The notes under the pieces were generated by a model. That model had not been told where the DNA came from. It made no database searches and worked only from the letters and a program-made list of their open reading frames with translations. 38,566 bases of DNA from Clostridia bacterium. Its GTDB lineage: Bacteria; Bacillota; Clostridia; Oscillospirales; CAG-272. Position 1 is the first letter of the stretch. Each line of letters starts with the position of its first letter. The stretch lies in NCBI GenBank assembly GCA_017518975.1, contig JAFWTH010000051.1:1-38566 (forward strand), given 5' to 3'. The translations under genes were made by a program, and so were the position numbers. This document shows positions 6,301 through 23,523 of this stretch, one piece after another.

Positions 6301-9015
6301 ATGAAAAAAATCATCTCCTTATTCATTGCGATAGTTATGCTCGCCGCTGCGATCGCCGTCGCTTTGCCTGTATCGGCAAAAAGCGTTTTTTCGGACGTCG
6401 AGGACGGCAGATGGAGCGCGTCGTCGATCTCATACGCCGTGAATAACGGATACATGAACGGCGTCGGGGGCGGAAAGTTTGATCCGACGGGATCTCTCAC
6501 CCGCGCGATGGTCGCGACGGTTCTGTGGCGCAGAGAAGGATCTCCGAAGCCGACCGCTCCGAGCGGCTTTTCGGACGTACCCGCCGGCGCTTGGTACGCC
6601 GACGCCGTGGCGTGGGCGAAGGAGACGGGAGTCGTGAACGGGATGACGGCGACGACCTTCTCTCCGAACGGATATATCACCCGCGAGCAGCTCGCGACGA
6701 TGCTCTTCCGGTTTTCGTCGAGCGCGCCGGTCTCCGTACCGGAGCGCGCGGATCTGACTCCATTTGCGGATGATGAAAAGACGTCCGGATGGGCAAAAGA
6801 GTCGCTTGAATGGGCGGTCGAAGCGGGGCTGATCAACGGTACGGACGGAAACCGTCTTCTGCCGTCGGGCAACGCCACCCGCGAGCAGTTCGCAGCGATA
6901 ATCGAACGTTACGACAACTCGTTCAGACTCACGTACAACGAGCCCGTCGTTCAGTCTCACTACACGGAGAAAGAATACCCGAAGGCCGACGGCGCGGACT
7001 TTTTTGTCAGTCCGTCCGGATCGGATGAAAACGACGGCTCATTTGAGCGTCCCTTTGCGTCTTTTGAAAGATCGGTCGTGGCGGTCAGAGAACTCAAAAA
7101 GACGAAGACGAGCGACATCACCGTCGCTTTCATGGGAGGTACGTACCCGTCCCTTTCCGCCGTTCTGACGGCGGAGGATTCGGGATCGCCCGGGCAGAGG
7201 ATCACGTATTGCGCTTACGGAGACGGAGAACCGGTCTTCAAGGGAGGGGTCACTTTCACGGCGGACGAATTCTCGGATCTCACCGCGGAAGAGGCGGCGC
7301 GCTTCACCGCAAAGGCGGCGCAGAAGATCCGGAAGATCAATCTGGGCGCGATGGTAAATGATATATCACATTTCAGGATGTACGGCGAGGATGGGATCCT
7401 TTACCCCGCGAGATACCCGAATAAATACCCCGACGGGACGGACCAGCTGATCATGGCTGCGACCACCGTGTCTCACGACGAGATGATGATAAACCAAAGG
7501 ATCATGAAAAACAAGCTTGAGGGTTACGCCGACAGAGCGGGCCTCAAAATATACGGCTTTCTAACGTACGGCTGGCATAAGGAGACTCTCTCGGTCGGCG
7601 ATTACGATCCGGAGACCGGGATCTTCAACGTGCCCGACGCGTCCTCTTCGTATTTCGCTCAGCTTTCCGGCGCGCCCGGGCTCCGATACATGGCTGAACA
7701 GGACGGAGGCGTCTATACCAAGGAAGACGTTACGTTTGCGTTCGTGAACATGCCTGAGGATCTCGATTACGACGGAGAGTATATACTCGACGAGAGCACC
7801 GGAACTCTTTACGTATACAACCCGAAGGGGGAATACGTGATCCCTCAGGAGACGACGAATATCAGACTGTTCGACGCGAACTGCATCACTCTCCGCGGAT
7901 TTACCTTCCTCGGGTCTGTGGATGCTCCGGTCAGAGCGACTTCCTCGTGCGGGCTGTATCTTGACGACTGCAGATTCAAAGTGACCGCCGGAAACGAGTT
8001 CGTCGTCGTTGAGAGGGCGGTCAGGGGGACCGACCTCGACTTCCGCCTCACCGGTTGTGAGTTCGAGATGGCGCCGTATATGGCAGTAAGAGTACATCCT
8101 CAGCAGAACGGCGCAGACAGATTCGACTACCCTGTCACCGGGGTCTACGACAACAACCGTTTCTCAAAGATCGGGATCGGGCAGGACGGCGGCGTCGCGC
8201 TGTTCATCAGAGATCACGATTCGGCGCGTATATCGCACAACGAATTCGAGGACTGCGCTCGTTACGCGATCACGTACGGCGGGTGCAACAATCTTATCAT
8301 AGAATACAACGTCTTCAGAAGATGTATGTACAACTCCGACGACGGAGGCGTGATCTATAACGGCAACGACAGGGAAGAATACAACAACGTGGTTCGGTAT
8401 AATCTTTTCCTGCCCACAAGCTGGTACGGTATGTATGTTGACGACGGAGGAGTCGGAGTCGAGGCTTACGGCAACCTCTTTTACGAGGTCGGCTCGTCGA
8501 TGGTCGTCCACGACGGACGGGACAACTCCCTGCACGACAACGTTCTCATAAATTCAGGGGTATCCATTACGTACGGTATGTATCAGGAGTTTTTGAACGA
8601 TCTGAATTCGGGAAGAGCGGATTTCACGAGCGGCGAATCGCGCTGGTTCGGATTCTACCAAAGCTGGCTCGATCTTTTCCGTAAGATCGAGTCGAATGAG
8701 AAATACAGGGAAACGCTCATGAGGGAAAGGCCGGAAGTCTTTGATCTGTCGACGGATCCCTCCGACGCGCTCAGCGTCGATTTCGTGCTTTCCCAGTACA
8801 ACGTTCTGAAGAACAACGTGTCCCTGACGAAGGACACGGAGACCGACGTCTTTGCGCCCAATGCGATCCTGAAGGATCACGTCGTTTCCGAAGGGAACAG
8901 GATATACGGATTGAATGATAATCCGATCTTCGTCAACCCGACGAAGGGAGATTACCGCATAAAGGACGGTGCCGACTTTATGGATATCCATTTTGATATT
9001 ATCGGAAGGTATTGA
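6301..9015 (+). CDS. SLH-anchored right-handed beta-helix protein 2 (GH141-like)
   Basis: 904 residues: signal peptide to about residue 23, SLH domains about 27-80, 87-139 and 152-205, beta-helix from about 232. Candidate active-site acids are in NSDDGGVIY (Asp680, Asp681) and YVDDGG (Asp714, Asp715), and the following HDGRDN is intact. About 330 bases of its SLH region differ from gene 1 at only around 16 positions by eye, while the helix domains are strongly diverged. The ATG has GGAGG nine bases upstream. No clear promoter was found between the MITE and the start, so expression may come from gene 1 read-through or from the AT-rich stretch 6246-6285. Gene 3 follows without a gap. Family confident, substrate unknown. 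Confidence 0.85.
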   Translation: MKKIISLFIAIVMLAAAIAVALPVSAKSVFSDVEDGRWSASSISYAVNNGYMNGVGGGKFDPTGSLTRAMVATVLWRREGSPKPTAPSGFSDVPAGAWYADAVAWAKETGVVNGMTATTFSPNGYITREQLATMLFRFSSSAPVSVPERADLTPFADDEKTSGWAKESLEWAVEAGLINGTDGNRLLPSGNATREQFAAIIERYDNSFRLTYNEPVVQSHYTEKEYPKADGADFFVSPSGSDENDGSFERPFASFERSVVAVRELKKTKTSDITVAFMGGTYPSLSAVLTAEDSGSPGQRITYCAYGDGEPVFKGGVTFTADEFSDLTAEEAARFTAKAAQKIRKINLGAMVNDISHFRMYGEDGILYPARYPNKYPDGTDQLIMAATTVSHDEMMINQRIMKNKLEGYADRAGLKIYGFLTYGWHKETLSVGDYDPETGIFNVPDASSSYFAQLSGAPGLRYMAEQDGGVYTKEDVTFAFVNMPEDLDYDGEYILDESTGTLYVYNPKGEYVIPQETTNIRLFDANCITLRGFTFLGSVDAPVRATSSCGLYLDDCRFKVTAGNEFVVVERAVRGTDLDFRLTGCEFEMAPYMAVRVHPQQNGADRFDYPVTGVYDNNRFSKIGIGQDGGVALFIRDHDSARISHNEFEDCARYAITYGGCNNLIIEYNVFRRCMYNSDDGGVIYNGNDREEYNNVVRYNLFLPTSWYGMYVDDGGVGVEAYGNLFYEVGSSMVVHDGRDNSLHDNVLINSGVSITYGMYQEFLNDLNSGRADFTSGESRWFGFYQSWLDLFRKIESNEKYRETLMRERPEVFDLSTDPSDALSVDFVLSQYNVLKNNVSLTKDTETDVFAPNAILKDHVVSEGNRIYGLNDNPIFVNPTKGDYRIKDGADFMDIHFDIIGRY

Positions 9016-9017
9016 TG

Positions 9018-11777
9018 ATGAAAAAACTGATTTCCTTGCTTTCTGCATTCATACTTCTTTTCGTATCGGTCGTTCCCCTTTTGCCGGCGTCTGCCCTTGC
9101 TCCTTCGTTTTCAGACGTTGCAAAGGACAGATGGAGTTACGATTCGGTTATCTACGCCGTTGAAAACGGATATATGAACGGAGTCGGCGGGGACCGATTC
9201 GATCCCTCAGGGCACCTGACCAGAGGAATGGTCGCGACCGTTCTGTGGCGCAGAGAGGGTTCCCCCGTACCGAGCGCTCCGAGCGGATTTACTGACGTTG
9301 CCGCGGGCGCGTGGTACACTGACGCCGTGGCGTGGGCGAAGGAAACGGGCGTAGTGAACGGAATGACAGCGACGACGTTCTCTCCAAACGGGTATATAAC
9401 CCGCGAGCAGCTTGCGACGATGCTTTTCCGATTTTCGTCAACCGCTCCGGTATCCGTGCCGGAACGCGCGGATCTGACCTCGTTTTCGGATGATGAAAAG
9501 GCTTCTGTATGGGCGGAAGAATCGCTCGGTTGGGCGGTCGAGTCCGGACTTATCAACGGAACGGACGGAAAACGTCTCGCGCCCGGCGAGGGTGCGACGC
9601 GCGAACAGTTCGCAGCGATAATAAAGCGGTACGACGATTCCTTCAAACTGTCGTATAACGCTCCTGTCGTCCGTTCGTACTATACGGAAAAGGAATACCC
9701 GCTCGTCAAAGACGCGGATTTCTACGTCGCGGTTGACGGAGACGATAAGGCGGACGGCTCTTTCGATCGTCCGTTTGCCACATGGGAGCGCGCACGCGAC
9801 GCCGTGCGCTCGCTCGACAGGACGGGCAGAACGGGTATCACGGTCGCTTTCATGGCGGGAGAGTATGCGTCGCCATCGGTCGAACTGTCCGCGGAGGACT
9901 CCGGAACGGCGGAGTGTCCCGTCACTTACTGTAAATACGGCGACGGAGACGTCATCTTCTCGGGCGGGGTGACGCTCGGAGCAGACTCTTTCGAACCGTT
10001 AAGCGAGGAAGAAAAGGGTTTATTCCCGGAGAGGGCTGTACCAAAGATCGGGAAAGCGGATATTTCGGATATTCTCACATGCGGTACGGATGATATCGTT
10101 ATTTTCACCGAGGACGGCATCCTTTCCGAAGCGCGCTTTCCGAACAAATACGAGGACGGCACGGATCAACTCATAACGAACGGTGCGGCGGCGGCGAGCA
10201 GAGATTCGTATCGGCTGACGAGTCGATTGTTGATAAACAGGATAAAGAGCTATCACACCGTCGATGGGATGAAAGTATACGGGTATATCGTCCGCGGATA
10301 TCAGAAGCATACGATCAAGGTCGCGTCTTACGATCCGGATACGAATATCATCCTTCTTGCCAACCCCGAAGCGGGCGACTACTACGGCGGGATTAATCCC
10401 GAAAAGGACGACTGTGAGATGGCATTCCTAAATATTTCCGAGGAACTTGACTCAAAAGGCGAGTACTGGATCGATCCCGAAACAGCAACTCTGTACGTAT
10501 TCGAACCGGAAGGGGATCTCCGTTTTCCGATGTCGGGGACTATGGTAACGATGAGATCCGCTGACTATATCACTTTCCGCGGTCTTACGATGATCAATGC
10601 GCGCGAGCGATTCATCGACGAGTCGATGGGACGCTGTATTACAGTCGACGGATGCGTCTTTTCGTGCGCCGTTGACGCATCCTCGATCGGAGGGGAGACG
10701 ACCGTCGGGGTCAAGGGCCTTTCGTTCGAAGACCATCCGGATGGCGTAAGCAAGGATCTCGTTTTTACCGGAAACACGTTTGAGTTGTTCTACGGCGCTG
10801 CAGTGAAAGTCAACGGAAACTGTGAAGGCGAACACCGTTTTGACAGAACGACGAACGTTCTGTTTGACAACAACCTCGTCCGTCTGACAAACCTCGGATT
10901 CGACTTCAGGTGCGGGATAGATATGCCTTCGTCTTCGTCTCTCAAATTCTCACACAACCGCTTTGAGAAGTGCGCCCGCGGCGCCGTCTCATATTCGCGC
11001 TCGTATGACGTGCTCGTGGAGTATAACGATTTCGATTCCGTGATGCAGAACGCGACGGACGGCGGCATTCTTTACGCCGATTGGGGCGCTGACGCGAGAA
11101 ACGTGGTCGTACGATACAACTGCTTTAACTACGTCGCCCCGACGCAGGTCGGAACGTACGGGTATTATATCGACGACGTCACGTCGGGTGCGGAAGTCTA
11201 TTCGAATATCTTCTGGAACACGGGCAACTGTGCGCTCATGGTCCACGACGGACGCGACAACTGTATACACGATAATATCGTTATCGGAACGTCGGGATCG
11301 TATGACGGCGAGTTCGGTTTTTCCGTGGTGAGCAGCCGCCCCTCAGTTGAGGAATCAGTTACGGCGGGGACGCTCGAAAGAGACAAGACGGACGAATGGG
11401 GCATCCGCCGGACGCTCATAGTTTGGGGCGAGGAAGTCCTCGACAAGTGTGCGCAGTACGTAAATTACAAAAACGCGATCTCGGAACGCTGGCCGCAGAT
11501 CCTCGGTTATCATCTGGACTTTGAAAACAGAGACGACCCGAATTTCGTGTTCAACAACGTAAACGAATTCTCCGGAAACGTCTATTTCAACGAATCGGGC
11601 AACCCCGGAGGGATCTCGGAAGACGAACTGATACTGAAGTACCTGACTGTAACGAACGAGACAGGTTACACTCTCGGAGAGAATCCGATCTTCGTCAACC
11701 CGACGAAGGGGGATTACCGTGTCCGCGACGGCGTCGGTTTCCCGGATATTCATTTTGAGGACGTGGGAAGATACTGA
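9018..11777 (+). CDS. SLH-anchored right-handed beta-helix protein 3 (GH141-like)
   Basis: 919 residues from the ATG at 9018. In-frame TTG at 9012 and ATG at 9015 are alternatives, but GGAAGG at 9004-9009 is best spaced for 9018. The sequence TGATGATG places the start right at the stop of gene 2, so the two are almost surely co-transcribed and translationally coupled. Signal peptide, SLH domains about 33-84, 91-143 and 156-209, then the helix from about 233. Candidate acids are in NATDGGILY (Asp681) and YIDDVTSG (Asp719, Asp720), followed by HDGRDN. Its third SLH is the most diverged in the set (SFSDDEKASVWAEES). No convincing terminator follows, but the next gene has its own promoter. Confidence 0.85.
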   Translation: MKKLISLLSAFILLFVSVVPLLPASALAPSFSDVAKDRWSYDSVIYAVENGYMNGVGGDRFDPSGHLTRGMVATVLWRREGSPVPSAPSGFTDVAAGAWYTDAVAWAKETGVVNGMTATTFSPNGYITREQLATMLFRFSSTAPVSVPERADLTSFSDDEKASVWAEESLGWAVESGLINGTDGKRLAPGEGATREQFAAIIKRYDDSFKLSYNAPVVRSYYTEKEYPLVKDADFYVAVDGDDKADGSFDRPFATWERARDAVRSLDRTGRTGITVAFMAGEYASPSVELSAEDSGTAECPVTYCKYGDGDVIFSGGVTLGADSFEPLSEEEKGLFPERAVPKIGKADISDILTCGTDDIVIFTEDGILSEARFPNKYEDGTDQLITNGAAAASRDSYRLTSRLLINRIKSYHTVDGMKVYGYIVRGYQKHTIKVASYDPDTNIILLANPEAGDYYGGINPEKDDCEMAFLNISEELDSKGEYWIDPETATLYVFEPEGDLRFPMSGTMVTMRSADYITFRGLTMINARERFIDESMGRCITVDGCVFSCAVDASSIGGETTVGVKGLSFEDHPDGVSKDLVFTGNTFELFYGAAVKVNGNCEGEHRFDRTTNVLFDNNLVRLTNLGFDFRCGIDMPSSSSLKFSHNRFEKCARGAVSYSRSYDVLVEYNDFDSVMQNATDGGILYADWGADARNVVVRYNCFNYVAPTQVGTYGYYIDDVTSGAEVYSNIFWNTGNCALMVHDGRDNCIHDNIVIGTSGSYDGEFGFSVVSSRPSVEESVTAGTLERDKTDEWGIRRTLIVWGEEVLDKCAQYVNYKNAISERWPQILGYHLDFENRDDPNFVFNNVNEFSGNVYFNESGNPGGISEDELILKYLTVTNETGYTLGENPIFVNPTKGDYRVRDGVGFPDIHFEDVGRY

Positions 11778-13263: not shown

Positions 13264-13315
13264 AAAGAGCCGTAGGTTTTTCATCTTTTTGCGGATGAAA
13301 AATCTACGGCTTTTA
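13264..13315. terminator. Bidirectional terminator between convergent genes
   Basis: A 17-base stem, 13269-13285 with 13294-13310 (GCCGTAGG...CTACGGC with one mismatch), A-rich on the left and T-rich on the right. It serves the SLH-only gene and the convergent peptidase operon. Confidence 0.85.
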
Positions 13316-13324
13316 TGCGGAATA

Positions 13325-13783
13325 CTATTCAGCCGTTTTTCTTTTCCTTCTTCTTATCCCGAGTCGATGCGCAGCTTTTCCGGCAAGACGGCGCAGACGG
13401 ACCCAACATGATCGGATCGGATAGATCCCGTTCCAAATCCGGGCATAAAATCTGTAGCCGCGTTCCGTCACGCTGTGCTCTTTCCCTTTTCTGATGAATC
13501 CGGTCAGCACGCCGATAACGTCGTCGTCCGGTACGGTTTCGAGCGAGAAAGTATTGTCTCCGCGGATAATATAATAGTCTTCCTTTACCTTGATAACGCG
13601 ATGCAGAACGTGATCGTCTCCGCGTCGGTACAGCGCAACGTCAAACCGTTTCAAGCGGCAGTCGGGGACACGTATCGTCACAAGATCCCTGTTCTGACGA
13701 AGCATAGGCTCCATACTTACGCCGCGCGTTTTGTAGACGATTATACCGTCGCGGGCGAGAACTTCTTCGATCGTGGCGCTCAT
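13325..13783 (-). CDS. S24/S26 family (SipW-like) signal-peptidase-type protein
   Basis: 152 residues. It contains GVSMEPML with the candidate nucleophile Ser23, then VLHRVI with His61 in place of the bacterial general-base lysine, and IIRGDN with Asp76; this Ser-His-Asp pattern is that of ER/SipW-type S26 peptidases. There is no clear N-terminal membrane anchor; the C-terminus is a basic, aromatic-containing tail ending RRRKRKTAE, which may bind membrane or nucleic acid. The ATG overlaps the TGA of the PqqD-like gene by four bases, so it is the last gene of a coupled three-gene operon. By context it may cleave a leader from a small substrate handled by its partners. Family firm, role inferred. 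Confidence 0.75.
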   Translation of the reverse strand: MSATIEEVLARDGIIVYKTRGVSMEPMLRQNRDLVTIRVPDCRLKRFDVALYRRGDDHVLHRVIKVKEDYYIIRGDNTFSLETVPDDDVIGVLTGFIRKGKEHSVTERGYRFYARIWNGIYPIRSCWVRLRRLAGKAAHRLGIRRRKRKTAE

Positions 13784-14040
13784 TCCGAGATGGCGTTGAT
13801 CGACCTCAGCGTGTCGATTACTTTCGCCACGTCGGCGGAGATCGTTTCGCGCGGTGCGTCGAATTTATCGCACATAGCGTTTACGATCGCCTCTTCGGTC
13901 GTCTCCTCCCTGAGAAGGTCAATGATGAACGCTGCGGTTTTGTTGCTTCGGACGATACCGCGGAACGCCTCGGAGCCAACGGGTACGAGGAACTGTACGT
14001 CGTCGATATCCTGTGAGATAAAATCAGGGTTCAGTTTCAT
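13780..14040 (-). CDS. PqqD-like peptide-binding protein
   Basis: An 86-residue protein of the PqqD family, the fold of the RiPP recognition element that grips leader peptides. The typical course is visible: MKLNPDFISQDIDDVQFLVPVGSEAFRGIVRSN split as a three-strand sheet, then NKTAAFIIDLL, TTEEAIVNAM and a final helix ISADVAKVIDTLRS. It overlaps the kinase gene upstream by 17 bases and the peptidase gene downstream by four, so all three are translated together. No radical SAM, lasso cyclase, lanthionine or transglutaminase-like partner is present in the window, and no obvious precursor peptide lies beside it. PqqD-like genes also occur in clostridial clusters with HPr-kinase-like and S24 genes outside classic RiPP loci. 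Confidence 0.8.
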   Translation of the reverse strand: MKLNPDFISQDIDDVQFLVPVGSEAFRGIVRSNKTAAFIIDLLREETTEEAIVNAMCDKFDAPRETISADVAKVIDTLRSINAISE

Positions 14041-14815
14041 TTTCCGATCTCCTTAACCGTAGTTCTTTTTTTATACTCTTATGCGGACCGAATATTCCCT
14101 CGCAAGCGACTCGCGCCGCCTCCGGATCCATATTACATTTCAGATCGTAAAAAGCCACCGCGCTGAGCAGCTCGTTTTCCAGTTTGAAAATCCGAATCCG
14201 GGTCGCCGGATCCTTTGACGAAAAAGACTGTTCCATCAAAACCGGGAAAGCGTCCGCACGGCTCATCGGCTCTATGCGGTTTTCCGCGTCCCGCTCGAGT
14301 TTTACGATCGCTCTGAGCGGTGCGGAAATATTCCGGCTAAGACGGTGCTTCCCTCCCCACGGCGAGCCGTATACCGTGACGCCGCCGTCAATTCGCAGGA
14401 AGGGTTTGTCGTCGTTGATCATTATTACCCGTTCCCCGAACACCTCACGCCAAAGCCTCGCGTGGGTGCTCTTTCCCGTTCCGCTTTTTGCGGTGAAGAT
14501 AACCGTCTCGCCGTCCATACAAACGGCGGAGCCGTGCATCAGAAGCACGTTTTCCGCGACAAGTTTCTCGGACAGAAGACTGTGTATGGCAAGGTTTTCA
14601 AGGAAAACGTCCTTCAGCGGGGATACTGTATTACTGTCGGTTTCACCAGTCGGCTCAAAGCTCGATCTGATCCTTTCAAGATCCGCGTCGGTGGGCTGAA
14701 CGCATATGCGAGGATCCTCCTCGCATAAATAATCCCGGAAATAATTGCGGTTTTTCTCGAATCGGCACCGGATCAGGACCGGCACGTCGGCCAGCTTAGC
14801 GCGGAGTTCGTACAT
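14024..14815 (-). CDS. HPr-kinase-like protein (HprK C-domain / PadeK type)
   Basis: 263 residues. The core is the HprK-type P-loop: HGSAVCMDGETVIFTA leads into SGTGKSTHA with Lys115, and INDDKPF (Asp135, Asp136) follows as in HprK-fold serine kinases. It lacks the N-terminal HprK domain and ends in a basic tail, so it is probably not the carbon-repression HPr kinase but one of the stand-alone relatives; PadeK-like members phosphorylate the C-terminal serine of lasso precursor peptides. First gene of the operon, with a strong GAGGTGAT ribosome site and a good promoter divergent from beta-helix gene 4. Its phosphorylation target is not evident here. Confidence 0.8.
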   Translation of the reverse strand: MYELRAKLADVPVLIRCRFEKNRNYFRDYLCEEDPRICVQPTDADLERIRSSFEPTGETDSNTVSPLKDVFLENLAIHSLLSEKLVAENVLLMHGSAVCMDGETVIFTAKSGTGKSTHARLWREVFGERVIMINDDKPFLRIDGGVTVYGSPWGGKHRLSRNISAPLRAIVKLERDAENRIEPMSRADAFPVLMEQSFSSKDPATRIRIFKLENELLSAVAFYDLKCNMDPEAARVACEGIFGPHKSIKKELRLRRSENETEP

Positions 14816-14835
14816 ATAATCACCTCAATATAATT

Positions 14836-14864
14836 ATTGTAACCGATACGCCGGATAAATGCAA
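14836..14864 (-). promoter_or_regulatory. Promoter of the kinase/PqqD/peptidase operon
   Basis: On the minus strand TTGCAT (14859-14864), a 17-base spacer and TACAAT (14836-14841), about 20 bases before the kinase start. Confidence 0.65.
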
Positions 14865-14892
14865 TAAGAAAACGCAGTTTTTCAAAAAAGGG

Positions 14893-14902
14893 GAAACGTT
14901 TC
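14893..14902. promoter_or_regulatory. cre-like palindrome between divergent promoters
   Basis: GAAACGTTTC is a perfect 10-base palindrome with the central CG and flanking A/T runs of catabolite-responsive (CcpA/LacI-family) operators. It lies 28 bases upstream of the kinase -35 box and 23 bases upstream of the beta-helix gene 4 -35 box, so one bound regulator could govern both. Only one such site was noticed. Confidence 0.4.
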
Positions 14903-14925
14903 GGTGGTTTTTCTGCTCTTGATTC

Positions 14926-14954
14926 TTGCATTCTTGCCGGTTGTTTGTTAAAAT
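14926..14954 (+). promoter_or_regulatory. Promoter of SLH/beta-helix gene 4
   Basis: TTGCAT (14926-14931), a 17-base spacer and TAAAAT (14949-14954), 30 bases before the ATG at 14985. Confidence 0.6.
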
Positions 14955-14984
14955 GAAACGGGAATTCATTCCGGAGGAACTATA

Positions 14985-17687
14985 ATGAAAAAAGTGTTAT
15001 CTTTTATTATTGCGCTTACAATAGCGGCGGCGTCAGCTTCGGTTGTATTATCTGCAGCTGTGGAGAGGATCGTGTTCTCAGACGTTGCGGAGAACCGCTG
15101 GAGCGCATTGTCGATAAAGTATGCCGTCGATAACGGCTATATGAACGGGGTCGGAAACGGAAAATTCGACCCTGCCGGGCCTTTGACCAGAGGAATGGTC
15201 ACGACTGTTCTGTGGCGAAGAGAGGGATCGCCCGCTCCGGGAACGCCGAGCGGATTCTCCGACGTCCCGGACGGTGCGTGGTACTCCGACGCGGTCGCGT
15301 GGGCGAAGGAGACGGGCGTCGTGAACGGAATGACGGAGACGACCTTCTCGCCTAACGGATATATCACCCGTGAACAGCTCGCGACCATGCTCTTCCGCTT
15401 CTCCTCTTCCGCACCGGTATCAGTCCCGGAACGCGCCGACCTTGACCCGTTCGCGGACGATGAAAAGGTTTCCGATTGGGCGGAAGAACCGCTCGAATGG
15501 GCGGTCGAATCGGGACTTATCAACGGTACGGACGGGAACAGACTCGCCCCGGACGGATACGCGACGCGAGAGCAGTTCGCCGCGATAATCGAGCGCTACG
15601 ACGGATCGTTCAAGCTCAAGTACAGGGATCCCGTTCTCCGCTCTCATTACACGGAGCCGGAATATCCGCTCGTTACGAACGCAGACTTTTACGTTTCGAC
15701 AGCGGGCAACGACAAAAATGACGGTTCCTTCGAGCGTCCGTTCGCAACGTGGGGCAGAGCGGTCGAAGCGGTTCGCTCCCTCGACAAGGCAGGCAGAAAC
15801 GGGATCACCGTCGCGTTCATGGCAGGCCGGTACGGCGCGCTCGACGTCACGCTGACCGCGGAGGACTCCGGCACTCCGGAGTGTCCGATAGTTTACTGCA
15901 AATACGGAGACGGCGACGTCGTCTTCGATAACGGATACAACTTCAGTGCGGACTCGTTCGTTCCGATCGACGAGAGCGAAAAGGCCTGGTTCGCGGGTAA
16001 GGCGGCGGACAAGATCAAAAAGACGGATATGTCTTCGGTCATCGCTCCGGGGACGTACGATCTGTCGTATTACGTTTTCTCGGACACGGGGTTGTGTACC
16101 GTCGCGCGTTATCCGAACAAATACGATGACGGGACGGACAATCTTATGCCCGCTTCCGGTTACGCGACGGACAACAATCACATCAAAATACTGAATTCTA
16201 TATTTATCTCGAGGATAAAGAAATACCATACTCTCGAGGGATTCAAGCTGTACGGATATCTGACGACCGGATGGTTCCAGGATACGCTTTCCGTAGGCGG
16301 ATTCAACGAGGAGACGAACGAGTGCTATATCACCGACCCCGAAAAGGCGAGGATGGGTTCTCTGCGCGCCGGAGAGTTTTACTGGCCCGATCACTTCTCC
16401 GCCGCGCTGATGAACGTGACCGAGGAGCTTGACGCCCGTGGCGAATATTACGTAGACGCCGCGACGTCGATAATGTACGTTTACGATCCCAAGGGCGACT
16501 ATCATATCGGGATCGGCGACAGGATGATCACGATGAACCGGGCGAACAACGTGACGTTCCGCGGTCTCACGTTCCTGAATACCAAGGATTACGTTATACA
16601 CGGAGATTACTGTCACGATATCACGGTCGATCAGTGCTCTTTCAGATGCTGCGGAGGCATGTACGCGATCGTCATCGACAGCCACGATACGGACCGCGAT
16701 TTGAACTTCACGCTCACAAGGAGCGATTTTGACCTCATGATGGACTGCTGTCTGCGTATCAACGGACACAGCACGTCCGAAAGGATCGGCTACGCGACGC
16801 ATATGAACGCGCTGATCGACAACAACTCATTCACGAATTACAATCTCTTCCTCAACGAGGAGAGCGCGATGTATATCTCCCATTGCGACGACGTTACGAT
16901 CTCGCACAACGAGTTCATCAACGGTGGACGTGGCGCGGTCTTCTACGGCGGGAGCCAGAAAGTGACGATGGAGTATAACTACTGCCGTAATCAGATGATC
17001 AACGCGGCGGACGGCGGCGTGTTCTGCACGTGGAACGATTTTTACCACCGCGGGAATATCGTAAGATACAATATAATCGAGGACGTCGCTTACCTCGGGG
17101 TGGGCGGATTCTCGCTCTACCTCGACGACTATTCAGCCGGCACGTCCGTTTACTCCAATCTGTTTTTCAACGGGAGCGAAATGGTCATCCACAACGGCAG
17201 AGACAACGTGATGAGGGACAATATCCTTGTCAACCCGGACGGAAAAATATCCGGTTTCTCCGTGACCGTACAGAATGACGTCTACCGTCCCGAAACGCTC
17301 GGTCAGTTCAGCGCTGACGACCTGAGCGTGGTAAACAACTGGAATAACGTATACGCGCAGTACGACGCGAACCCCGCTCTCAAGGCGAACACCATGGCGA
17401 ACTGGCCGGAGATCTTCGAGCTGACGACGGACCTTGAGAAGTGGGACGACCCGTCCTTCGTTCTCGCCAGAAACGAAACGGTAGTAAACAACAGATTTAT
17501 CAACGTGACCGGACAGATAGCCGTTCCGACTTCGGAATACGTCGTCAAGTATTCGACGATAGAGGGTAACGTCGGCTATACGCTCGGTGAGAACCCGTTC
17601 TTCGTCAATCCGTCCCGCGGGGATTACCGCTTAAAGGACGGCGTCGATTTCCCGGATATTCAGTTTGAAAAAATCGGCAGATACTGA
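14985..17687 (+). CDS. SLH-anchored right-handed beta-helix protein 4 (GH141-like)
   Basis: 900 residues with GGAGG eight bases before the ATG. Signal peptide to about residue 25, SLH domains about 29-82, 89-141 and 154-207, helix from about 233 (YVSTAGNDKNDG). Candidate acids are in NAADGGVF (Asp676) and LYLDDYSAG (Asp714, Asp715); the motif before the last coils reads HNGRDN. Its SLH block is more diverged at the base level from genes 1, 2, 5 and 6 than they are from each other, suggesting it has escaped recent homogenisation. It starts the second trio, has its own promoter and a textbook terminator, and is the only beta-helix gene here that is clearly monocistronic. Confidence 0.85.
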   Translation: MKKVLSFIIALTIAAASASVVLSAAVERIVFSDVAENRWSALSIKYAVDNGYMNGVGNGKFDPAGPLTRGMVTTVLWRREGSPAPGTPSGFSDVPDGAWYSDAVAWAKETGVVNGMTETTFSPNGYITREQLATMLFRFSSSAPVSVPERADLDPFADDEKVSDWAEEPLEWAVESGLINGTDGNRLAPDGYATREQFAAIIERYDGSFKLKYRDPVLRSHYTEPEYPLVTNADFYVSTAGNDKNDGSFERPFATWGRAVEAVRSLDKAGRNGITVAFMAGRYGALDVTLTAEDSGTPECPIVYCKYGDGDVVFDNGYNFSADSFVPIDESEKAWFAGKAADKIKKTDMSSVIAPGTYDLSYYVFSDTGLCTVARYPNKYDDGTDNLMPASGYATDNNHIKILNSIFISRIKKYHTLEGFKLYGYLTTGWFQDTLSVGGFNEETNECYITDPEKARMGSLRAGEFYWPDHFSAALMNVTEELDARGEYYVDAATSIMYVYDPKGDYHIGIGDRMITMNRANNVTFRGLTFLNTKDYVIHGDYCHDITVDQCSFRCCGGMYAIVIDSHDTDRDLNFTLTRSDFDLMMDCCLRINGHSTSERIGYATHMNALIDNNSFTNYNLFLNEESAMYISHCDDVTISHNEFINGGRGAVFYGGSQKVTMEYNYCRNQMINAADGGVFCTWNDFYHRGNIVRYNIIEDVAYLGVGGFSLYLDDYSAGTSVYSNLFFNGSEMVIHNGRDNVMRDNILVNPDGKISGFSVTVQNDVYRPETLGQFSADDLSVVNNWNNVYAQYDANPALKANTMANWPEIFELTTDLEKWDDPSFVLARNETVVNNRFINVTGQIAVPTSEYVVKYSTIEGNVGYTLGENPFFVNPSRGDYRLKDGVDFPDIQFEKIGRY

Positions 17688-20754: not shown

Positions 20755-23523
20755 GTGAAAAACGTTCTATCAATACTGATCACACTCGCTATGCTCGCCT
20801 GTGCGTTTTCCGTGATCCCCGTGAGCGCCGGGAAGATCGAGTTCTCAGACGTCACCGACGATAGGTGGAGTTACGGCTCGATAAACTACGCCGTCGAGAA
20901 CGGCTATATGCAGGGAGTCGGAGGCGGAAAGTTCGATCCGACGGGATCGCTCACCCGTGCGATGGTCGCGACGGTTTTGTGGCGCAGAGAAGGATCTCCG
21001 AAGCCGACCGCTCCGAGCGGCTTTTCGGACGTACCCGCCGGCGCGTGGTATGCCGACGCCGTGGCGTGGGCGAAGGAGACGGGAGTCGTGAACGGGATGA
21101 CGGCGACGACCTTCTCCCCGAACGGATATATCACCCGCGAGCAGCTCGCGGCGATGCTCTTCCGGTTTTCGTCGACCGCGCCTGTGTCCGTACCGGAACG
21201 CGCGGATCTGACTCCGTTTTCTGACGATGAAAAGACGTCCGGATGGGCAAAAGAGTCGCTTGAATGGGCGGTCGAAGCTGGGCTGATAAACGGCACGGAC
21301 GGAAACCGTCTTTTGCCGTCGGGCAACGCCACACGGGAACAGTTCGCCTCGATAATCGAAAGATATGACAGCACTTTCAATCTTTCGTACAACCGGCCTG
21401 TTCTCCGCTCTCACTATACGGAAAAAGATTATCCTCTTGTAACGGATGCGGATTTCTACGTATCTCCGGCGGGGTCGGACGAGAACGACGGATCGTTCGC
21501 CCGTCCGTTCAGAACGTGGGAGAAGGCGCGTGACGCGGTGCGCTCGCTCGACAGGACGGGCAGAACGGGTATCACGGTCGCTTTCATGGCGGGGAATTAC
21601 GGTCCGCTTTCCATCGAATTCGGCGAAGAGGATTCCGGTACGCCGGGGTGTCCCGTTACTTACTGTAAGTACGGCGACGGGCCCGTCGTCTTTGACAACG
21701 GCGCGACGTTGAGCGCGGACGATTTCGAGCCGATCGGCGAAGAAGAAAGGGCGGCGTTCAACGACCGGTACGCGGACAATATCAGAAAAGTCGACCTGAA
21801 TAAATTTTTCAGCGAGATCCCGGACTATTCCGAGTTTATGCTGTTCAGCGAACAGACCGTCATGACCGCGGCGAGGTTTCCTAACAGATACGCCGACGGG
21901 TCGGACAATCTCTTGACGTCGGGCGAGACGAACGACCAACGGTCTCTCCGTATTACCGCGGGAGTTCTCGCGCGCCGTATCGCGACGTACTCCGACGAGG
22001 CGATCGCCGAAATGCGCGTTTACGGATATATCGTCAGCGGGTACAGAAAAGACACGTTCCGCGCCGAATCGTTCGACAGGGAGAACGAGATACTTTACAT
22101 CAAGGACTGGAACACGCACCAGTACGGTCCGATGCGTTCCGGATGGCGCGGAGCCGACGGTGAAGGCATCAAAATGTGCGTCACGAATGTTGCGCGCGAA
22201 CTCGACTTCGCCGACGAATACTGGATCGACCGTGAAACCGGCACGCTTTACGTTTACGACCCGAGGGGAGAATACCGTATTCCGATGGGATACGGCGAGA
22301 AGAAGATCAGAGGATCGGGGCACGACGTCGTTACCGGGTACGATCAAACGCCCGAATACCTGATGATCGATCTCGAAAACACGGGATATATTACGTTCCG
22401 CGGATTCAGTTTTGAAAATGCCGCAGACGGGATCATGTTCGGTTACAGGACTTCGGGGATAAAGATCGACGAATGCTTGTTCTCATGCTCGACGGGCCCG
22501 AATCAGACGCTTTTCCTGTTTTCCTTTGATAATGCTCCGCTCGCCCTGACCGTGACCGACAGCGAATTCGATCTCTCTGCGGGATCCGCGGTCTGGATCG
22601 AGGACGTTGCAGACGGTCCCGAAAGATATACGAACAGGAGCGACGCGCTCATCGACAACTGCCTGTTCTCGCGCGCGAACCTCACGTATGACGTCGAGGG
22701 CGCGGTCGATATGTACAAGTGTTCGGGAGGAACGGTATCCCACTGCCGTTTTGAGAATTGCAGCAGATGCGGAGTCATGTATCAGGGCTCGTTCGATATT
22801 CTGATCGAGTACAACGACTTCGACAGCGTGATGACGAATTCCGAGGACGGCGGCGTTACGCGCACTTGGGGCAATATGGACGGGAACTGCGTTATCCGTT
22901 ACAATTACTATAACAGTATTACCGAGTCACAGGGAGTCGGCAGACTCGCGCAGTATTCAGATGACGGCGACTGCGGGACGGAGATATATTCAAACCTTCT
23001 GTACTACGGCGGGGATATTGTATTCGCCGGAGCGGGGCGCGACAACGTGTTCCGCGACAACGCCGTTGTGGGAAGCGGCAAAGTGTCCGTCCAGTCGATG
23101 ACGGCGGCCATCAAGGAGGCGGGCGACGAAGCGCGTTCTTCATGGCCGATCTACATCCACCTCGCGAGGTGGGACAAGATCCTCGGGTATATCGCGACCG
23201 TCGACGGATACGCTGAAGAACTCGAAGCCCGCCGTCCGGGCGCGACGTCGCTCACTTTCGACTTCAACGATCCGTGGGTTCTCGATTTCGTGTTCGCTCC
23301 GGTCACTGCGATAACGGGCAACGTATATTTCAACGAGACCGGCGAGACGGACGGGCGTTTCAATCTGCTTGACGACGCACGAGATTACTGCACGCTCGAC
23401 GGCAACGTCGGGTACACGTTCGGGGAGAATCCGATCTTCGTCAATCCCACGGTCGGCGACTACCGCGTCCGCGCGGATTCAGGTTTCACAGACTTTCATT
23501 TTGAACTGATCGGAAGATACTGA
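20755..23523 (+). CDS. SLH-anchored right-handed beta-helix protein 6 (GH141-like)
   Basis: 922 residues, the longest of the six. It starts with GTG at 20755; AAGGAG seven bases upstream and the correct signal peptide (KNVLSILITLAMLACAF) support this. SLH domains about 27-80, 87-139 and 152-205; helix from about 231. Candidate acids are in NSEDGGVTR (Asp698) and QYSDDGDCG (Asp736, Asp737), then AGAGRDN. An extra loop of about 25 residues near 511-535 (IRGSGHDVVTGYDQ) explains the extra length. No promoter was found between the MITE and the start, as for gene 2. It ends at a strong terminator. Confidence 0.85.
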   Translation: MKNVLSILITLAMLACAFSVIPVSAGKIEFSDVTDDRWSYGSINYAVENGYMQGVGGGKFDPTGSLTRAMVATVLWRREGSPKPTAPSGFSDVPAGAWYADAVAWAKETGVVNGMTATTFSPNGYITREQLAAMLFRFSSTAPVSVPERADLTPFSDDEKTSGWAKESLEWAVEAGLINGTDGNRLLPSGNATREQFASIIERYDSTFNLSYNRPVLRSHYTEKDYPLVTDADFYVSPAGSDENDGSFARPFRTWEKARDAVRSLDRTGRTGITVAFMAGNYGPLSIEFGEEDSGTPGCPVTYCKYGDGPVVFDNGATLSADDFEPIGEEERAAFNDRYADNIRKVDLNKFFSEIPDYSEFMLFSEQTVMTAARFPNRYADGSDNLLTSGETNDQRSLRITAGVLARRIATYSDEAIAEMRVYGYIVSGYRKDTFRAESFDRENEILYIKDWNTHQYGPMRSGWRGADGEGIKMCVTNVARELDFADEYWIDRETGTLYVYDPRGEYRIPMGYGEKKIRGSGHDVVTGYDQTPEYLMIDLENTGYITFRGFSFENAADGIMFGYRTSGIKIDECLFSCSTGPNQTLFLFSFDNAPLALTVTDSEFDLSAGSAVWIEDVADGPERYTNRSDALIDNCLFSRANLTYDVEGAVDMYKCSGGTVSHCRFENCSRCGVMYQGSFDILIEYNDFDSVMTNSEDGGVTRTWGNMDGNCVIRYNYYNSITESQGVGRLAQYSDDGDCGTEIYSNLLYYGGDIVFAGAGRDNVFRDNAVVGSGKVSVQSMTAAIKEAGDEARSSWPIYIHLARWDKILGYIATVDGYAEELEARRPGATSLTFDFNDPWVLDFVFAPVTAITGNVYFNETGETDGRFNLLDDARDYCTLDGNVGYTFGENPIFVNPTVGDYRVRADSGFTDFHFELIGRY

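Follow-up and report, generated by a model that had tools for sequence, protein, structure and literature searches.

Introduction

Linear polyphosphorylated peptides (LPP), a class described in May 2026 from Paenibacillus alginolyticus, are encoded by lppAKBSDN (Popov et al., 2026; PMC13381572). As presented in the main text of that paper, the parts of the system are a kinase (LppK), a RiPP recognition element (RRE; LppB), a SipW-like peptidase (LppS), a transporter (LppD) and a nucleotidyltransferase (LppN), and the precursor LppA has a YxxP leader, with Y/WxxP found in the published precursors. LppK places several phosphates onto one serine and accepts neither threonine nor tyrosine; binding of the leader by the RRE was shown, and the leader is removed by LppS, a Ser/His/Asp peptidase, together with LppB (PMC13381572). 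The published precursors were looked for, and located, no further than 5 kb from the cluster, and the biological role of LPP is stated as unknown (PMC13381572). The main text of the paper makes no mention of Clostridia, S-layer, radical SAM or secreted proteins.

Here, we analyzed a window of 38,566 nucleotides from a Clostridia bacterium (GTDB family CAG-272; contig JAFWTH010000051.1) that holds three genes of this kind, referred to below as the trio. The trio shares an HprK-like kinase, a discrete RRE and a SipW-like Ser-His peptidase with LPP clusters. Lasso peptides of the paeninodin/pseudomycoidin type also have an HprK-like kinase, a PqqD-type B1 protein, a nucleotidyltransferase and a Y/WxxP leader, but neither a macrolactam cyclase nor the Cys leader peptidase B2 was seen among the ORFs scanned beside the trio, which has an S26 peptidase instead.

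Results

A predicted kinase, recognition element and leader peptidase

A sequence-only reading of this DNA had described three overlapping genes, coding for an HprK-like kinase with a P-loop, a PqqD-type protein and a SipW-like Ser-His-Asp peptidase, set among SLH/beta-helix genes. Our analysis bore out this description, including the gene coordinates (Table 1) and the overlaps between the open reading frames, which are 17 bases for kinase and RRE and 4 bases for RRE and peptidase. The trio kinase is the only one of its type in the genome.

Table 1. Features of the trio and its immediate surroundings in the window.
Feature	Coordinates	Strand	Remarks
HprK/PEPCK-fold kinase (LppK-like)	14024..14815	-	263 aa; P-loop AKSGTGKSTH, MINDDKP
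PqqD-type RiPP recognition element, RRE (LppB-like)	13780..14040	-	86 aa
Archaeal/SipW-type (S26) Ser-His leader peptidase (LppS-like), soluble	13325..13783	-	152 aa
Secreted SLH-only protein, 229 aa	12562..13251	+	SLH 2e-31; convergent with trio
Inverted repeat between convergent peptidase and SLH genes	13265..13314	.	21-nt arms, 8-nt loop
Divergent intergenic region, precursor site in relatives	14816..14984	.	no precursor recognised here

The RRE was clearly matched by Pfam PqqD (PF05402, 3.8e-14); its NCBIfam match to lasso_PqqD (1.4e-8) fell under the cut-off, and a sequence search of the PDB returned the lasso RRE TbiB1 weakly (E 0.03) and did not return LppB. The same search gave no credible match for the kinase or the peptidase. 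The AlphaFold (AF2) model of the kinase (pLDDT 91) matched PEPCK (4e-7) and HprK (1.5e-6) in Foldseek, its P-loop is intact, and H94, G112, G114, K115, S116, T117, D136, K137 and P138 are invariant across 25 homologues. The peptidase matched the sigpep_I_arch profile weakly (2.5e-6), and its AF2 model (pLDDT 91) matched SpsB, a type I signal peptidase, and LexA (4e-4 and 6e-4). Residues S23, H61 and D76 are invariant in 24 homologues and E82 is present in 15; either D76 (of GDN) or E82 may serve as the acid of the triad.

No family profile matched the kinase above its cut-off. Its best NCBIfam match is HprK_rel_A, and this match could be taken to mean that the trio is an HPr-rel-A (TIGR04352) or GAK (TIGR04355, HprK_rel_B) system, described in NCBIfam as a kinase, a PqqD-like chaperone and a nucleotidyltransferase, and that its function has nothing to do with peptides. 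The HPr-rel-A system does have an HprK-type kinase, accompanied by a PqqD-like partner and a nucleotidyltransferase, but the window kinase reached only 24.4 bits (1.4e-5) against the HprK_rel_A cut-off of 200, and 12.2 bits against the HprK_rel_B cut-off of 200. Moreover, the kinase co-occurs with leader peptides (see below), and an S26 peptidase is not known to be a defining part of either system. We regard an HPr-rel-A or GAK system as highly improbable here.

Surroundings of the trio

The trio converges on the SLH-only gene, whose product ends in GVELPEVPIG (tail codons 13228-13251) and is a probable partner of the trio. The inverted repeat between the two convergent genes, with arms 90% complementary and A/T runs outside, is probably a two-way terminator; a consensus terminator scan did not detect it. 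A run of secreted proteins of about 900 aa surrounds the trio (3343-23523), and the three that were scanned (9012-11777, 14985-17687 and 20755-23523) combine N-terminal SLH repeats with a right-handed beta-helix.

The sequence-only reading had called the trio an orphan. Within the window this stands: no radical SAM enzyme, transporter or precursor lies beside the trio, NTP transferase and MsbA-like ABC transporter genes are absent there, and the scanned ORFs beside it include no macrolactam cyclase or B2 Cys peptidase. A precursor hidden in the window was considered and rejected, as the ORF list, a six-frame motif scan and a leader profile all yielded none, and the profile found no leader-bearing peptide on the window's contig. 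An anti-phage defence role was likewise rejected, PADLOC giving no match. For the genome as a whole the label does not hold: leader peptides, a SPASM radical SAM enzyme (contig C54) and two NTP_transf_5 genes are encoded on other contigs. One of the NTP_transf_5 genes has AMP-binding enzymes and a pair of ABC transporter genes as neighbours (C89; L204:4646-9170), perhaps a separate pathway.

The trio recurs in relatives

Kinase homologues were found in 89 of 146 sampled family genomes (61%), a recurrence far beyond what chance would give. With a further 30 kinase loci taken from the genome collection, 70 loci were read overall, and in most of them kinase, PqqD and peptidase genes are consecutive on one strand. 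Fusions also occur: the peptidase of L078 is fused to a nucleotidyltransferase, and one ORF of L055 carries both domains (L036, where kinase and PqqD seem to overlap, was not counted as a fusion). The nearest relative, L031, has the trio between SLH/beta-helix genes, with kinase and peptidase 57-72% identical to those of the window; the flanking array resembles the window's.

The kinase of L032 shares 53% identity with that of the window, and this locus has the order kinase-precursor-radical SAM-PqqD-S26-ABC-NTP_transf_5, which amounts to the genes of LPP with a radical SAM gene added. G529, from another family, has secreted protein-peptide-kinase-S26-ABC-NTP_transf_5. Both have the NTP transferase and ABC transporter that LPP clusters include and that the window trio lacks, and an NTP_transf_5 gene and an MsbA-like ABC transporter are features that some relatives share with LPP. 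Because L032 has the LPP gene set, we take the window trio as an LPP-type kinase-RRE-peptidase module; the trio enzymes are of a known kind, the core of kinase, RRE and leader peptidase described for LPP. Some relatives lie near capsule-type genes, as do LPP clusters. In L082 and L098, sequence inspection placed capsule-regulator-like genes (Wzz/CpsC, BY-kinase CpsD and PHP phosphatase CpsB) directly after kinase and PqqD, in line with the capsule link reported for LPP.

Most trios have no radical SAM gene nearby: only about ten of the 70 loci have one, recognized by an L032-type profile match or a CxxxCxxC motif. As in ranthipeptide-type radical SAM/SPASM clusters (Clo7bot TIGR04334, PapB), SPASM enzymes stand beside peptides or a tail lipoprotein in some relatives and on C54 of the window's genome; however, the L061 enzyme reached 125 bits where the cut-off is 600, and no enzyme of this type adjoins the window trio.

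These loci bear on whether the trio could be the functionless remnant of a lasso or LPP cluster that has lost its precursor, cyclase and transporter. There is no precursor beside the trio in the window, and no kinase at all was present in three congeners examined, as decay would predict. On the other hand, all three reading frames are uninterrupted and overlap at their junctions, the catalytic residues are intact, L031 retains a similar trio in the same setting, and matching peptides are present both in the window's genome and in that of L031. The sequence-only reading had named two observations that would count against its proposal: broken active sites in close relatives, and homologous trios always accompanied by a known RiPP cyclase and precursor, which would make this a decayed cluster. 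The P-loop, NDDKP and the Ser, His and Asp residues are invariant. As for a cyclase, not every trio has one at its side, judging by radical SAM genes, which were near only about ten of the 70. A decayed cluster is therefore not supported, and we consider it very unlikely.

Leader peptides are the likely substrates

At many loci, an ORF of 28-80 aa just upstream of the kinase carries the motif [YF]xxPxIEVIxFxxxDVITTS. In the window's genome, the leader profile A2 (consensus xKExFExPExEVxxFxxxDVITTS) found four leader-bearing short peptides, located on contigs C5, C73, C79 and C100. Across 91 unique peptides, the Y position is aromatic in 89, the fourth leader position is P in 56 (it is missing from the C5 and C100 peptides), and the conserved Ser is present in 89, the other two being unaligned there; Thr was never seen. 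Searches of Pfam and NCBIfam with the peptides gave nothing credible.

The leader tracks the kinase. Among the 146 family genomes, 54 have the leader, and the kinase is present in 53 of these vs 36 of the remaining 92 (p=2e-14, or p=9e-13 without the genomes that seeded the profile), although both values overstate independence because family genomes are related. The sole leader-positive, kinase-negative genome (G050) has a weak match in a 379-aa frame and is 63% complete. In the phylum sample all three leader-positive genomes carry the kinase, and in both leader-positive genomes from outside the family the peptide is upstream of it. Peptides were also present in nine of ten further kinase-bearing genomes, including the genome of L031 (G544). 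Conversely, 36 of the 89 kinase-positive genomes have no peptide at threshold, which could reflect limited sensitivity of the profile, the draft state of genomes or different substrates.

In some relatives, for example L038, L040, L048 and G529, the precursor is in the cluster or within 5 kb of it, but 86 of 103 peptide matches are unlinked, being more than 10 kb from a listed kinase or on a different contig. This dispersal, seen also in the window's genome with its four precursors elsewhere, differs from LPP, whose published precursors are that close to the cluster; searches confined to one cluster miss most precursors. Like LPP precursors, the family peptides have a Y-x-x-P leader and a conserved Ser after the leader. 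Their leader nonetheless departs from the LPP consensus YxxPxVLxHQxIxFETxxS: HQ and FET are absent, EVIxFxxxDVITTS stands in place of VLxHQxIxFET, and the distance from Y to Ser is about one residue longer. The family further differs from LPP in its short acidic cores, radical SAM partners in some cases, pairing with large secreted proteins and tails shared with SLH proteins and lipoproteins. Relative to what the LPP paper presents in its main text, the leader, the location of precursors in trans, their pairing with secreted proteins and the sharing of tails appear to be new. Separately, two proteins of 156-162 aa at L093:6916-8266 have an N-terminal leader-like motif followed by a core of about 130 aa, with weak profile scores.

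A probable maturation module acting in trans

We think it probable that the trio is an LPP-type maturation module working in trans, the latter because the genome has four leader peptides, along with a SPASM radical SAM enzyme and two NTP_transf_5 genes, on other contigs. The RRE would bind the [YF]xxPxIEVIxF leader of short precursors encoded on other contigs, and the kinase would (poly)phosphorylate the near-invariant Ser that closes the leader motif. The RRE may then present the leader to the S26 peptidase, which would cut near VIT(T)S and free a short acidic core. On peptides with Cys in the core, a separate radical SAM enzyme probably also acts. An ABC transporter might export the product, and an NTP_transf_5 enzyme encoded elsewhere might add a sugar. 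Gene architecture, active-site conservation, the kinase and peptidase folds, co-occurrence, the position of the peptides and tail conservation were observed here. By analogy with LPP, RRE-leader binding, Ser phosphorylation and leader cleavage are predicted for this organism, and we infer the order of steps, the action in trans and a role for the tail. The earlier proposal of a module for leader binding, phosphorylation and cleavage was largely right and matches the LPP system, apart from the orphan label and the signal regions as candidate leaders.

Many peptides adjoin predicted secreted proteins, and some share C-terminal tails with surface proteins

Of 72 peptides, 44 lie within 130 bases downstream of a gene on the same strand that codes for 250 aa or more. 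Among these upstream genes, 36 are predicted to be secreted or are cut by a contig edge, compared to 39 of 518 control genes (p=2e-17). A common C-terminal domain of about 85 aa, with consensus end LVKALYKYYKAARAYF, was present in 21 of 48 upstream proteins, a biased estimate of enrichment because loci were fetched for kinases or peptides; Pfam and NCBIfam gave nothing credible for the domain. It is found on large secreted proteins of L110, L111, L039, L088 and others, and in the loci read it goes together with LPP-like peptides.

The sequence-only reading had offered the SLH and lipoprotein signal regions as candidate leaders. This was not borne out; the resemblance to the peptides lies instead in the C-terminal tails of an SLH protein and a lipoprotein. 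The 2.5-Mb genome has four instances of EVPIG-stop (0 in the reversed control; about 0.5 expected by chance, a rough figure from base counts): in the SLH protein next to the trio, in a C54 lipoprotein and in the C73 and C79 peptides. The longer LPEVPIG-stop is shared by the SLH protein and the lipoprotein only. The lipoprotein (tail YELPEVPIG) comes after the SPASM radical SAM gene (L103:3-869 and 866-1726). In G544, a single operon (L230:7181-9639) encodes a peptide ending in GEVDIG, a radical SAM enzyme and a lipoprotein ending in YELPEVPIG, an order suggesting that contigs C73 and C54 of the window's genome are neighbours. The nine tail residues of the two lipoproteins are identical although five codons differ synonymously, whereas the preceding stretch is 28% identical, indicating selection on the protein tail.

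Other genomes have tails of their own: one has DELPWxP three times at one locus (a peptide and two secreted proteins), and another has NQLPLG-stop twice (a peptide and an SLH-like protein). Over 49 genomes, tail sharing was not significant overall (mean rank 0.495, KS p=0.21), but the own genome ranked first in seven vs about one expected, and we conclude that sharing is strong in some genomes and not universal. Tails of the form [EDN]xLP were borderline enriched near peptides (7 of 112 vs 3 of 174 far from them, p=0.05); for the wider xLP motif near kinases, the signal is no more than suggestive.

Such tails, together with the position of the trio inside the array here and in L031, raise the alternative, in line with the exported-protein option of the sequence-only reading, that the direct targets of the trio are the exported SLH/beta-helix proteins or lipoproteins around it: the adjoining SLH protein has the EVPIG tail, and in other genomes proteins with xLPxxP-type tails are right beside the kinase. 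However, the array proteins have no YxxP leader motif, the RRE-binding motif and the near-invariant Ser belong to the short peptides, and most relatives' trios are not in such an array. The soluble peptidase is, moreover, predicted to be cytosolic, while the array proteins go via Sec. Direct action on these proteins is improbable, and maturation of short peptides in trans is the reading we retain.

A surface role for the matured peptides is suggested because the peptides pair with secreted proteins and the tail is shared. We hypothesize that the tail docks the matured peptide or its partner to a receptor used by SLH proteins and lipoproteins. A broader scheme, which we offer tentatively and consider rather doubtful, is that a central trio matures many peptides, each encoded with its own large secreted protein, and that matured peptide, secreted partner and surface anchor meet outside the cell via a species-specific C-terminal tag that the peptides have in common with SLH proteins and lipoproteins. 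LPP-related modules are common in this Clostridia family, their precursors scattered beside secreted proteins, and the conserved tail that some precursors have in common with surface-anchored proteins points to a testable role at the cell surface. The pairing and the tails together provide a lead on the function of such peptides.

Related strings were also seen away from C-termini. The C79 contig encodes an SLH/BspA-LRR protein (L110:5595-7085) with mature N-terminus GTELPEVPIESPE, which places the ELPEVPI string close to the end opposite to that of the tails, and the protein at L088:7169-7948 has ELPELPLEG at the corresponding place of its mature N-terminus.
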